A program made the position numbers and the translations under genes. This document shows positions 1,384-62,982 of a stretch of 64,000 bases of DNA, one piece after another. Numbering within the stretch: position 1 is the stretch's first letter; the number at the start of each line of letters is the position of its first letter. The notes beneath the pieces were generated by a model, which made no database searches, was not told the origin of the DNA, and saw nothing but the letters and a program-made list of their open reading frames with translations. This stretch comes from Candidatus Hydrogenedentota bacterium (GTDB taxonomy: Bacteria > Hydrogenedentota > Hydrogenedentia > Hydrogenedentales > Hydrogenedentaceae): positions 1-64,000 of the forward strand of contig JAOAHN010000100.1 of the NCBI GenBank assembly GCA_026415215.1, in the 5' to 3' direction.

Positions 1384-2241
1384 ATGGAAAGATTAGTGTT
1401 TACAAAGATGCATGGTTTGGGGAATGATTATTTATTCATAGATGCACGCAGTGGTTATCCAACAGAAAATCTTGCAGAGCTCTCTCGCCAGATGAGTCAT
1501 AGACATCTCGGAGCAGGTGCTGATGGGATTATACTTATACTTTCCTCTAACATTTCAGACTTTAAAATGAGAATTTTTAATGCTGACGGAAGCGAAGCGG
1601 AAACCTGCGGAAATGGAATCAGATGTTTTGCCAAATATGTTTACGAACATGGGCTCACAAAGAAAACTGAGTTTACTATAGAAACGCTCGCTGGTCCAAA
1701 TAGAGTAAAACTACATACAAAAGACGGTAAAGTTGACAGAGTCCGCTCGAATATGGGGAAGCCCAATTTTGAACGGTCTAAAATCCCCATGCTCGGTTCA
1801 CCTATTGATAAACCAGTGCTTGAAGAACCTATTGATGTAGATGGAGAAACTGTAAAAATAACAGCGGTAAATATTGGAAATCCCCATGCTGTTATTTTCG
1901 TTCCTGATGCTACCAAAGCACCAGTAAGCCAACTTGGACCTAAAATTGAAAATCACCCTCTTTTTCCACAGAGGACAAATGTCGAGTTCGTTTCAATAGT
2001 TGATAAGTCAAATATAGTCATGAGGATATGGGAACGGGGCAGTGGAATCACCATGGCGAGTGGGAGCGGTTCCTGTGCATCTGCTCTTGCATCTATGATA
2101 ACAAACCGCACCGATAAACGGGTTAATGTTCATCTTGTGTATGGAATTCTTACCATTGAATGGGCTGAGGATGGATGCGTATATCAAGAAGGGCCTGCTG
2201 AGGAAGTATATACTGGTTACTGGTTACAAGCATTGCCTTAA
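1384..2241 (+). CDS. dapF: Diaminopimelate epimerase homolog with altered second active-site half
   Basis: Family role: cofactor-independent epimerisation of LL- to meso-diaminopimelate using two cysteines, for lysine and peptidoglycan. The 285-residue length, the N-terminal HGLGNDYLFID and the first catalytic loop NADGSEAETCGNGIRC (Cys75) are typical. The second loop is not: where the family usually reads RGxGET.ACGxGAC, this protein reads RGSGITMASGSGSC. The Glu is Ile222 and the catalytic Cys is Ser226; a Cys remains at 231. The RBS GGAGGAG lies 6-12 bases before the ATG, and ddl is immediately upstream. dapB is also in the window (24678-25478), so the pathway is present. The protein could be an active variant, a relaxed-specificity racemase, or impaired. 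Confidence 0.85.
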   Translation: MERLVFTKMHGLGNDYLFIDARSGYPTENLAELSRQMSHRHLGAGADGIILILSSNISDFKMRIFNADGSEAETCGNGIRCFAKYVYEHGLTKKTEFTIETLAGPNRVKLHTKDGKVDRVRSNMGKPNFERSKIPMLGSPIDKPVLEEPIDVDGETVKITAVNIGNPHAVIFVPDATKAPVSQLGPKIENHPLFPQRTNVEFVSIVDKSNIVMRIWERGSGITMASGSGSCASALASMITNRTDKRVNVHLVYGILTIEWAEDGCVYQEGPAEEVYTGYWLQALP

Positions 2242-12683: not shown

Positions 12684-12759
<76 letters not shown>

Positions 12760-12783: not shown

Positions 12784-12856
12784 GGGCCGTTAGCTTAGTC
12801 GGTAGAGCAGGGGACTCTTAATCCCAAGGTCGCAGGTTCGACTCCTGCACGGCCCA
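12784..12856 (+). tRNA. tRNA-Lys (CTT)
   Basis: Acceptor GGGCCGT pairs with ACGGCCC, the T-arm is GCAGG-TTCGACT-CCTGC, and loop CTCTTAA gives anticodon CTT. Discriminator base A; the CCA is not encoded, unlike the neighbouring tRNA-Gly. The outermost anticodon-stem pair (27-43) is a G.A mismatch. Confidence 0.95.
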
Positions 12857-59298: not shown

Positions 59299-61740
59299 TC
59301 ATACAAAAAGGTTTACATTTGCGTTTCCAGCTTCGCCAAGGTAATATCCTACACCGCCAATCTCAACACCATCAATTAATTCCTCTCTTTTTATGCCCAT
59401 TACATCCATAGACATAGAACATGCCACGAGTTTAACTCCAGAATCTATAGCATTCCGGAGAAGTTCTGGAAGTCCCATTATGTTTTTGCTTTTCATAACA
59501 TATTTCATAAGTCTCGTCCCCATACCGCCCATATTCATTTTTGAAAGTTTAAGAGAATCTACACCCCGGGGCATCATCATGCTAAACATCTTCTCGAGGA
59601 AGGTCTTTTTCAATTCCAATTCAGGTTTTTTCCTCAACACATTTAAGCCCCAAAAAGTAAAGAAAATCGTGGTTTTGTAGCCCATACTTACCGCCCCATT
59701 AGCAATCACAAATGTAGCGAGAACTTTGTCAAGATCATTAGAAAAGCAAATTATGGTTAGTCCTGGTTTCTTAGTTGTTTTGCATTCAGATTCAGCTTCG
59801 ACTGTTGGAGATAATGATTGCCCTTTTATTATCTCTACAAGGTAGCCGTTACGGTCTGGTTTAACACTTATAAGCTTATGCCCCATATTTTGACACCAAG
59901 CTGGCACATCACAGGTGAAACCTACATCTGTAGCGAACACCTCAAGCACATCACCCGGCTTGAGCTTTTCCATAGCCTGCTTCACTTTTAGCAAAGGACC
60001 TGGGCACTGTAGACCCGACACATCCAATCGATGTTTCTCCGATTGAACTATAGAATCATCTGCGGGTGCTGTCTCAGACTTAATTATGCTCAAGGCATTC
60101 AACTTCGGAGCAGTAAATTGTGGTTTTCGATGGAACCAACTCCAAGTGCGATATCCTCCGTTCAGATTCTTTACTTTGTATCCTCTCTGCTTAAGATACC
60201 TATAGGCTATATACCCTCTCAATCCAACCGCACAATAGGTTATCACATTAGCGTCTCTTGGAATCTCCTCAATTCTTGAACGAATCTGGTCCACGGGGAT
60301 AAGGGTAGCTCCGGGTATTGCACCTCCTTCTGCTTCCGCAGGTTCACGCACATCCAAAATAAAAGCATCTGATGGAATCTCATCAGGATTCACGACTTCC
60401 ACATCGCCTCTGATGATATTAGATGCTACATAACCCACCATGTTAATGCCATGTTTAGCCCCTCCCCACTGAGGAGAATAAGCGAGTTCCTCGTCCTCAA
60501 AATCGAAAACTGTTAGCTTATGTCTCAACGCCATCGCAAGTGTATTTATCATACTTTCAACTCCCTCGTATCCTACTACCTGAGCACCAAGTATATATCC
60601 ATCTGGCTTAAAGATAATCTTAACGCTCACCGGTTGTGCACCTGGATAGTATCTCGGATGCTGCATAGGATGAACATAGGCCTTATAGTAAGGAATGCCT
60701 AATTGTTTTACTTGAGACTCAGTTAACCCAGTCTGAGCAACTGCAAGATTAAAAACTTTTAATATCCCTGTCCCCTGTATACCACCAAACTTTGAATCTC
60801 TCCCACAAATATTGTCAGCTGTAACTCTGCCTTGCCTGTTGGCAGGTCCTGCTAAAGGAACTGCGGTCCTCCCTCCAGTCACCACATCGTAAGTTTCCAA
60901 AACATCTCCAACCGCATATATACTTGGGTCACTTGTCCGCATATGTTCATCAACTACAATATACCCCCGAGGTGTAGTTTCTAATCCCGCCTCTACTGCA
61001 AGTTTGCTATTGGGTCTCACGCCAGCGCACATAAATACTATGTCGCTACCTATTATCTTGCCACTCTTCAAAAAAACTTTCCCATCTTCTATTCTTTGAG
61101 CAGTTTCATTAAGGAAGACACTTACCTTGTTTACCAAAAGTTCCTGCAATATCGGCGTAGTCATTTCAGAATCCATTCGAGGCATTACATGGTCCAACAT
61201 CTCTACAAGAGTAACTTCTAAACCGCGGTGCTTTAAATTCTCAGTAAGCTCTAAGCCAATAAAACCTGCACCAATAACACAAGCGTGTTTTGCTCCTGGA
61301 AGAGCTTTCATTATCCTGTCCATATCACTTAGGTGGTTCAAAACAAAAACCCTATCAGAGTTTACCCCAGGTATTTGTGGAACTACAGGGGTAGAACCTG
61401 TAGCAAGTACAAGATAATCGTAGGGGAAGGTAAGAGTAGTGTTATTAATCAAATTTTTAACTACAACCTCTTTCTTCTCCCTATTTATAGCAATCACTTC
61501 ATGATTAGTTCTAATATCTAAGCCATATCTTCCTTGTAATCCCTTCACAGTCTGAACAAGTAAAGATGACCTTTCAGGAATAATCCCGCCTATGTGATAC
61601 GGCATCCCACAGTTGGCATATGAAACTTCTGAACCTTTTTCAAACACTGTAACCTCTATTGAATCGTCTAACCTCTTCAGCCGAGTAGCACAACTCATCC
61701 CCCCGGCTACACCGCCTACTATAATTACCCTTTTAGGCAT
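59299..61740 (-). CDS. Four-module CoA-disulfide reductase / rhodanese / TusA / DsrE-like fusion
   Basis: 813 residues in one chain. (1) A CoADR-type flavoprotein (1-440) with GGVAGGMSCATRL, YANCGMPYHI (catalytic Cys44, single, not CxxxxC) and a second GAGFIGLELTE Rossmann. (2) Rhodanese (about 455-545), active Cys in YCAVGLRGYIAY. (3) TusA/SirA (about 570-645), with CPGPLLKVKQAM. (4) A DsrE/DsrF-like domain (about 655-813), with LVACSMSMDVMGI. The Cys residues expected to pass persulfide sulfur are all present. Role: reducing persulfides/CoA-polysulfide and moving sulfane sulfur, as detoxification or assimilation. It follows the repressor gene by 43 bases. Similar fusions are known; this order is from memory. 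Confidence 0.92.
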   Translation of the reverse strand: MPKRVIIVGGVAGGMSCATRLKRLDDSIEVTVFEKGSEVSYANCGMPYHIGGIIPERSSLLVQTVKGLQGRYGLDIRTNHEVIAINREKKEVVVKNLINNTTLTFPYDYLVLATGSTPVVPQIPGVNSDRVFVLNHLSDMDRIMKALPGAKHACVIGAGFIGLELTENLKHRGLEVTLVEMLDHVMPRMDSEMTTPILQELLVNKVSVFLNETAQRIEDGKVFLKSGKIIGSDIVFMCAGVRPNSKLAVEAGLETTPRGYIVVDEHMRTSDPSIYAVGDVLETYDVVTGGRTAVPLAGPANRQGRVTADNICGRDSKFGGIQGTGILKVFNLAVAQTGLTESQVKQLGIPYYKAYVHPMQHPRYYPGAQPVSVKIIFKPDGYILGAQVVGYEGVESMINTLAMALRHKLTVFDFEDEELAYSPQWGGAKHGINMVGYVASNIIRGDVEVVNPDEIPSDAFILDVREPAEAEGGAIPGATLIPVDQIRSRIEEIPRDANVITYCAVGLRGYIAYRYLKQRGYKVKNLNGGYRTWSWFHRKPQFTAPKLNALSIIKSETAPADDSIVQSEKHRLDVSGLQCPGPLLKVKQAMEKLKPGDVLEVFATDVGFTCDVPAWCQNMGHKLISVKPDRNGYLVEIIKGQSLSPTVEAESECKTTKKPGLTIICFSNDLDKVLATFVIANGAVSMGYKTTIFFTFWGLNVLRKKPELELKKTFLEKMFSMMMPRGVDSLKLSKMNMGGMGTRLMKYVMKSKNIMGLPELLRNAIDSGVKLVACSMSMDVMGIKREELIDGVEIGGVGYYLGEAGNANVNLFV

Positions 61741-62068: not shown

Positions 62069-62099
62069 ATATACATATACAAAGTATATGTATATCATA
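62069..62099 (-). promoter_or_regulatory. Operator-promoter of the csoR operon: perfect 12-bp inverted repeat next to the -10
   Basis: ATATACATATAC (62069-62080), spacer AAA, then the exact reverse complement (62084-62095). On the minus strand the -10-like TATGAT (62099-62094) touches the repeat, so the predicted start (near 62087) lies in it. A bound repressor would block transcription. All AT, unlike the G/C-tract sites known for CsoR. Confidence 0.65.
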
Positions 62100-62174: not shown

Positions 62175-62302
62175 CCCCTTCAAAAACAACAAAGAAAGCG
62201 GCGGGAACCAGATGTAGGTTTCGCTTATTATATGCGGGCAACCCACCGCCCGTTTTGGTCCTGTTCGGGACTGTGACAAAACCCTCCAGTTCCCGCCTGA
62301 AA
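62175..62302 (-). ncRNA. Candidate structured RNA with a predicted pseudoknot
   Basis: Read on the minus strand, GGCGGGAAC (62297-62289) pairs with GTTCCCGCC (62208-62200) as a 9-bp closing stem. Inside it: GTTTTG...CAAAAC enclosing GTCC-CGAACA-GGAC; then the hairpin CGGGC-GGTGGGTT-GCCCG. Its loop GTGGGTT can pair with the later AACCTAC (7 bp, one G.U), which would be an H-type pseudoknot. A T-rich run (62198 to about 62180) follows the stem. The element is GC-rich in AT-rich surroundings and matches no RNA family I can name. It lies upstream of the csoR operon, so it may be a leader or a separate small RNA. Confidence 0.55.
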
Positions 62303-62982
62303 CTCTATAATAACCACTACCTTTTACTACTTATTTAATTTTTCCTTATATATTTTTCCACGAAACAACTAAAAATACAAAAAAATTTTATTCCCTAAAA
62401 TATAATTTTTTTCTGGTTAAATTTTGTCTTTTTTCAGTAGTGTATGATTAAAACACACATTATCAAAAACTAAACGGTAGAAAAATCTTTTCATAATTTT
62501 TATGAATAACTTCCTCTACAAATCTTTCTATCAATAACTCTACCTCTCTCATAATAATTACGAGATTTTCTACTGCATATACTACTGTTCACTCAGCACT
62601 CTATTACTCAACTGTCAAACAGCTACACTTTTAGTAAAAAATTTAAGATACAATCGCATATATGGTAAACTCCCTTAACCCTATTCTCTACTCCTTTTAG
62701 ATACCGCTTGTATTCTCCCTTCAATAATAACTCTTAGTCTTTATTCAAAACTGGGTTAAAAATTTTCTGTGTCATCTATCCTAAAAATTTCTTCCGCTTT
62801 ATTAAATAAAGGACTTCCACCTCCAAATTCTATTGTGCACTTTCTTCTACTGGTGCAGATTCCAATCTTCCCAAGACTATCCTCTCTCCGCCAATCATGC
62901 TTATTCATGCCCACTTTATAAAACTGTTCCTCCCAAACTCTCAAAAAAAAAGAATCGCTAAGAATAGAACTACTTTTTTCTT
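62303..62982. other. AT-rich intergenic region, no confident gene
   Basis: About 680 bases between the structured RNA and the sialidase-like gene. It is very AT-rich on the left. A 62-codon minus-strand frame at 62756-62944 (TTG start, no ribosome site) reads somewhat like coding sequence (GGGSPLFNKAEEIFRIDD), but it lacks support and could be a gene remnant. No RNA motif is seen. Confidence 0.4.

Follow-up and report, generated by a model that had tools for sequence, protein, structure and literature searches.

Structured RNAs that are encoded at a single locus, kept across much of a phylum and placed outside the catalogued families are uncommon. Such conserved single-locus RNAs tend to mark core functions, with 6S RNA, SRP RNA and OLE as examples. 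Structures of the large ornate bacterial RNAs OLE, ROOL and GOLLD have been reported (PMC12286853). For Hydrogenedentota, an open literature search found no description of non-coding RNAs. Here we analysed a stretch of 64 000 nt of DNA from a member of this phylum (hereafter the window), near the end of which lies a compact element on the minus strand. We consider it quite probable that this element encodes a structured non-coding RNA with transcription of its own, restricted in our searches to Candidatus Hydrogenedentota, and that the RNA acts in trans.

The element consists of a GC-rich, foldable stretch of ~98 nt (62200–62297, minus strand) followed by a U-rich 3′ tail (62181–62199). The GC content is 57 % at 62200–62299 vs 21–32 % in both flanks, which bears out the initial annotation in its description of a GC-rich core of ~98 bases in AT-rich surroundings; the perfect 9 bp closing stem, two internal hairpins and T-rich tail (~62181–62198, minus strand) that it listed are all present as well. 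This stem pairs GGCGGGAAC with GTTCCCGCC (62289–62297 with 62200–62208), reaching 12 bp once G–U pairs are counted. On the minus strand we obtained a folding energy of −52.5 kcal/mol (z = −2.67), with one of 200 dinucleotide shuffles equally stable, whilst the plus-strand fold was weaker (z = −1.86). Within this core module, P1 (5′ strand GGCGGGAACUGG, 62286–62297; 3′ strand CUGGUUCCCGCC, 62200–62211), which is nearly palindromic, closes the element, and P2 (GGUUUUG, 62277–62283, with CGAAACC, 62217–62223) leads to a three-way junction with two hairpins, P3 (GUCC-CGAACA-GGAC, 62258–62271) and P4 (CGGGC-GGUGGGUU-GCCCG, 62235–62252), all on the minus strand. Judging by several single-sequence folds, the 5′ strand of P3 may alternatively pair with a conserved GACC located 3′ of P4. 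By comparison with congeners, 62298–62350 (minus strand) would form the probable 5′ leader of the transcript. ARAGORN predicted no tRNA-like fold in the element; elsewhere in the window, two tRNA genes lie in tandem (12684–12756 and 12784–12856).

Homologous loci throughout the phylum share this fold, which is best described as a long interrupted stem bearing a three-way junction with two hairpins. Outside the genus of the window, P1 is long and carries a small conserved bulge (GCGGAAG-Y-U-GCGU-AG-CGA/UCG-ACGC-N-RCUUCCGC), and it is shortened within that genus. The consensus of P2 is GGUUUUG/CGAAACC and that of P3 GGUCC-CAAACA-GGAUC; P4 elsewhere in the phylum reads GGGCC-AUGUGGAG-CGCCC, and a conserved junction strand, AGACC-N-ACCAGCG, follows 3′ of P3 and P4. 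Using a MAFFT alignment of 18 sequences with the structure specified by hand, we found 92.5 % of cells paired vs 36–46 % in slid controls, and 11 pairs with double changes. A larger test, using 28 sequences in an alignment fitted to a covariance model, agreed with this: double changes were present in 23 of 34 pairs (shuffles, 9.6 ± 1.8; 0 of 500 as high), 91.6 % of cells were paired vs 39–49 % in slid controls, and the covariation score was 0.279 vs 0.058–0.083 with the partner slid. Every helix added to this signal, with compensatory changes in 8 of the 12 P1 pairs, so that the closing stem covaries strongly, and with 5 of 8 pairs covarying in the P2 region, 3 of 5 in P3 and 3 of 5 in P4. These compensatory changes, of the kind looked for in a structured non-coding RNA gene, support the fold throughout. 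Furthermore, 65 G–U wobbles were counted vs 23 A–C mismatches, and the RNA strand is thus the minus strand. Judged by these comparisons, compensatory mutation has maintained a conserved fold encoded by the minus strand, and the earlier proposal of a structured RNA on this strand is upheld by fold, covariation and wobble balance alike. The same cannot be said of the H-type pseudoknot proposed with it. Complementarity between the loop GUGGGUU (GTGGGTT in the DNA, 62240–62246, minus strand) and AACCTAC (62214–62220) does exist in the sequence, but the structure lacks support, as pairing is 7 of 7 in the window copy only and 0–4 of 7 in 17 relatives, and it competes with conserved P2, sharing bases with the P2 3′ strand (62217–62223).

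In order to place the element amongst known families, we searched Rfam 15 and found no match to it, for the window copy even at E ≤ 10 and for two sets of 12 relatives at E ≤ 1. The check proposed in the initial annotation therefore returned no known family, and the same scans gave no homology to OLE, ROOL or GOLLD. In favour of a diverged housekeeping RNA (6S, SRP, RNase P, tmRNA or Y RNA), the element is compact, spread through the phylum at one locus per genome and preceded by its own promoter-like site. Against this, SRP RNA (RF00169) has a separate locus in the genome of the window (G000:C51) and lies elsewhere in relatives, and RNase P RNA (RF00010) and tmRNA (RF00023) occupy other loci of the window genome (G000:C131 and G000:C146, respectively). 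Likewise, many genomes with the element have their 6S RNA (RF00013) at a different locus; the case is less tight here, since the search of the window's own genome yielded no 6S RNA. For Y RNA, the partner protein TROVE/Ro60 was found in none of 40 genomes, with a positive control in Deinobacterium. As such, together with the lack of an Rfam match, a housekeeping RNA in disguise is highly improbable, and the element is best read as a candidate new RNA family outside those catalogued.

The distribution of the element was followed with successive models. A DNA search recovered a single copy in the window's own genome and, amongst 60 relatives, two congeners at ~74 % identity. From these three sequences we built covariance model R1, whose matches were single and strong in each of the four genomes of the genus, and less strong though still clear in a dozen further members of the order; R2 (18 sequences) and R3 (28 sequences) extended the count to 32 and 33 of the 68 phylum genomes available, respectively, with one locus each under R3. 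Secondary model matches were either second readings of the near-palindromic element on its other strand or an adjacent tandem copy. Two weak matches of the first covariance model (L048 and L049) were discarded as chance. Genomes of family f4 and most of those of f5 gave no model match, and the missing half or so of the phylum may reflect loss of the element or divergence too great for recognition. A search with the f5-type bulged P1 motif produced one extra possible genome (G060), and the rest of the fold was absent from its match. Beyond the phylum, a strict sequence pattern applied to 84 980 species matched Candidatus Hydrogenedentota only. No match to the element was found in viral contigs, plasmids or phages; the pattern AGTCCYGTTCGGGACT had six exact matches in viral contigs, none of which resembled the element.

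We then considered the genes around it. In the window, csoR lies downstream on the same strand, with the element ending ~140 nt before its likely start, and it is this arrangement that underlies the earlier suggestion of a riboswitch or stress RNA tied to the csoR–sulfurtransferase–DUF1638 genes. Under this explanation the element would be a cis-acting riboswitch or attenuator through which a metal or sulfur signal controls that operon, with P1 and the U tract available as a terminator. No examined relative, however, has csoR downstream. Even within the genus the neighbours are unrelated, consisting of a nucleoside transporter and an AIRS/hypE-like protein in G001 and G002 and a convergent M16 peptidase in G003, whilst further out they include Dus, a sugar transporter, a PAS protein, PP2C, a DHDPS-like protein, MatE and uronate isomerase; a conserved position upstream of one gene or pathway was thus not found. 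Moreover, the would-be terminator P1 is the most conserved, covarying helix and no conserved anti-terminator alternative was seen, and csoR appears by eye to possess its own weak promoter-like site together with an inverted repeat (62072–62098). As neighbouring genes vary by lineage, a csoR riboswitch is very unlikely, and the proposed link to this operon is not supported. The inverted repeat itself, TATACATATAC-AAA-GTATATGTATA, immediately precedes the likely csoR start and looks like a CsoR operator. The gene at 59299–61740 (minus strand), which adjoins csoR and a DUF1638 gene, specifies an 813 aa fusion of pyridine-nucleotide disulfide reductase, rhodanese, TusA and DsrE-like domains.

Several other families have the element flanked by an FG-GAP repeat gene on one side and a small uncharacterised gene on the other, with a DUF434/DUF5616 gene next in some. 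Conserved synteny of this kind within some families shows vertical descent. A small conserved protein is encoded 3′ of the RNA in several families (L066, 881–1435; L067, 1015–1407; L068, 776–1441; L074, 855–1562; L086, 958–1572; all minus strand). The L067 protein had no Pfam match; in L067 and L068 a DUF434/DUF5616-like gene follows, with the Pfam match to this gene shown for L067.

Upstream of the element, a crude scan identified promoter-like sites in most of 30 loci, sharing the pattern CTTGS ... TGGTAnAAT at a spacing of 16–17. Many of these scored better than shuffles (P ≤ 0.02), whilst several other loci were no better than shuffles. The distance from site to P1 is ~10 nt in three f5 loci and 200–440 nt in most others; additionally, in three congeners a TTGCWT-N17-CATAAT-like site lies ~50–60 nt upstream of P1, recognised by eye where the scan had picked another. 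The window copy is a poor promoter match with no clear site. At the other end, U runs follow P1 in many relatives as they do in the window, where the P1 3′ strand and U-rich tail would work as an intrinsic terminator. These flanks support, from sequence, a putative promoter and terminator belonging to the element itself. By the consensus matches, a TTGxxx-N16/17-TGGTAnAAT promoter would initiate transcription just upstream of the module (~10 nt away in some lineages; the related site of three members of the genus is at ~50–60 nt) or, where a longer multi-domain form exists, 200–440 nt ahead of it, and transcription would end at P1 and its U tract.

Such flanks also bear on the question of whether the element is an RNA gene at all, rather than a mobile or repeated DNA hairpin such as a MITE, a REP or an attC-like site. 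The flanking inverted ends and the surroundings that differ between genomes would fit a mobile hairpin, but promoter-like and terminator-like flanks would not, nor would the one-strand preference for G–U pairs. As each genome has one strong copy, synteny is conserved inside families, and plasmids, phages and viral contigs gave no match, we regard a mobile hairpin as exceedingly improbable.

Where the promoter-like site is 200–440 nt upstream, the arrangement suggests a longer RNA that ends in the module as its 3′ domain and, in some cases, contains a second copy in tandem. The sequence between distant site and module folds stably in nine loci (L064, L066, L068, L070, L073, L079, L080, L084 and L085); in L064 the long form would correspond to 1494–1944, minus strand. 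Double changes occurred at 17 of 113 pairs amongst four members of one genus and at 21 of 86 pairs amongst four members of two other genera, counts that span the whole RNA with four sequences per set and are suggestive only. Furthermore, a second P4 motif (GGCCAYGUGNAGNGCCCAGACC, ≤ 6 mismatches) is present upstream in seven loci (L063, L065, L066, L074, L079, L085 and L086), with ≤ 0.02 expected by chance from shuffling. It lies, together with similar hairpins, ~117–121 nt upstream of the main module, as expected for a tandem copy, and R2 weakly recognises this upstream copy in G026 (E = 3 × 10−4) and G009 (E = 0.004). Set against these longer forms, the RNA of the window looks like the minimal, single-module form of a modular RNA.

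With regard to function, a trans-acting antisense-type sRNA would pair with mRNAs through the P3 loop CAAACA, the P4 loop AUGUGGAG and the junction AGACCUAACCAG. These are the best-conserved unpaired parts outside the genus of the window, and the element, a lone gene flanked by a promoter-like site and a terminator of its own, is arranged like many sRNA genes. In the window's genus (CGAACA and CGGGUA) and in f5, however, the loops are replaced whilst the stems are kept, indicating that structure is better conserved than the sequence of the loops; repeated three-way-junction modules are also unusual for antisense sRNAs. Antisense pairing is therefore an unlikely, if reasonable, account of the element. 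Amongst possible trans-acting roles for a structured RNA, we infer that a protein-binding scaffold or regulator is most likely, given that compensatory changes preserve the stems whereas the loops vary by lineage, and because the RNA is rigid, encoded at one locus, vertically inherited and tied to no neighbour. The bulged P1, the conserved P3 and P4 loops and the junction strand would then provide the contact surface. It is also quite possible, if short of probable, that we are dealing with a new phylum-specific modular family. In some lineages the three-way-junction module would then occur by itself (transcripts of ~110–160 nt), whilst in others it would form the 3′ end of an RNA of ~400 nt that has several domains and repeats the module in tandem; the RNA would act as a scaffold or multimerise, which would place it in the same broad category as OLE, ROOL and GOLLD.

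The element, from an uncultured phylum that has received little study, combines a clear covarying fold with a length that differs from lineage to lineage by entire modules. Its evolution and function are thus open to metatranscriptome and pull-down study, and the resulting covariance model can be used for metagenome screening.

Comparison with described RNAs places the element near several classes. Like riboswitches with terminator stems it is compact, GC-rich and covarying, with a U tract after it, but it has neither a conserved downstream gene or pathway nor a conserved pseudoknot, and its contexts vary. Bacterial Y RNA, the Ro60 partner, presumably resembles it in having a closing stem with a small conserved bulge, an internal structured domain and a U-rich 3′ end; the genomes carrying the element differ in being without TROVE/Ro60 (0 of 40 searched), and no Rfam Y RNA matched. 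With 6S RNA (RF00013) it shares a single locus, a promoter of its own (for the element, a promoter-like site) and a long closing stem, whereas a three-way junction takes the place of the single-stranded central bubble, and 6S RNA is a separate gene in many of the genomes. From OLE, ROOL and GOLLD it differs in phylum, in lacking any match in Rfam 15 by sequence or covariance, and in its variable length, which goes down to one module of ~98 nt and includes tandem module copies in some lineages. What it has in common with these three is that it is a structured, apparently non-coding RNA gene with no known protein-coding role, whose longer forms reach ~400 nt and comprise several domains.
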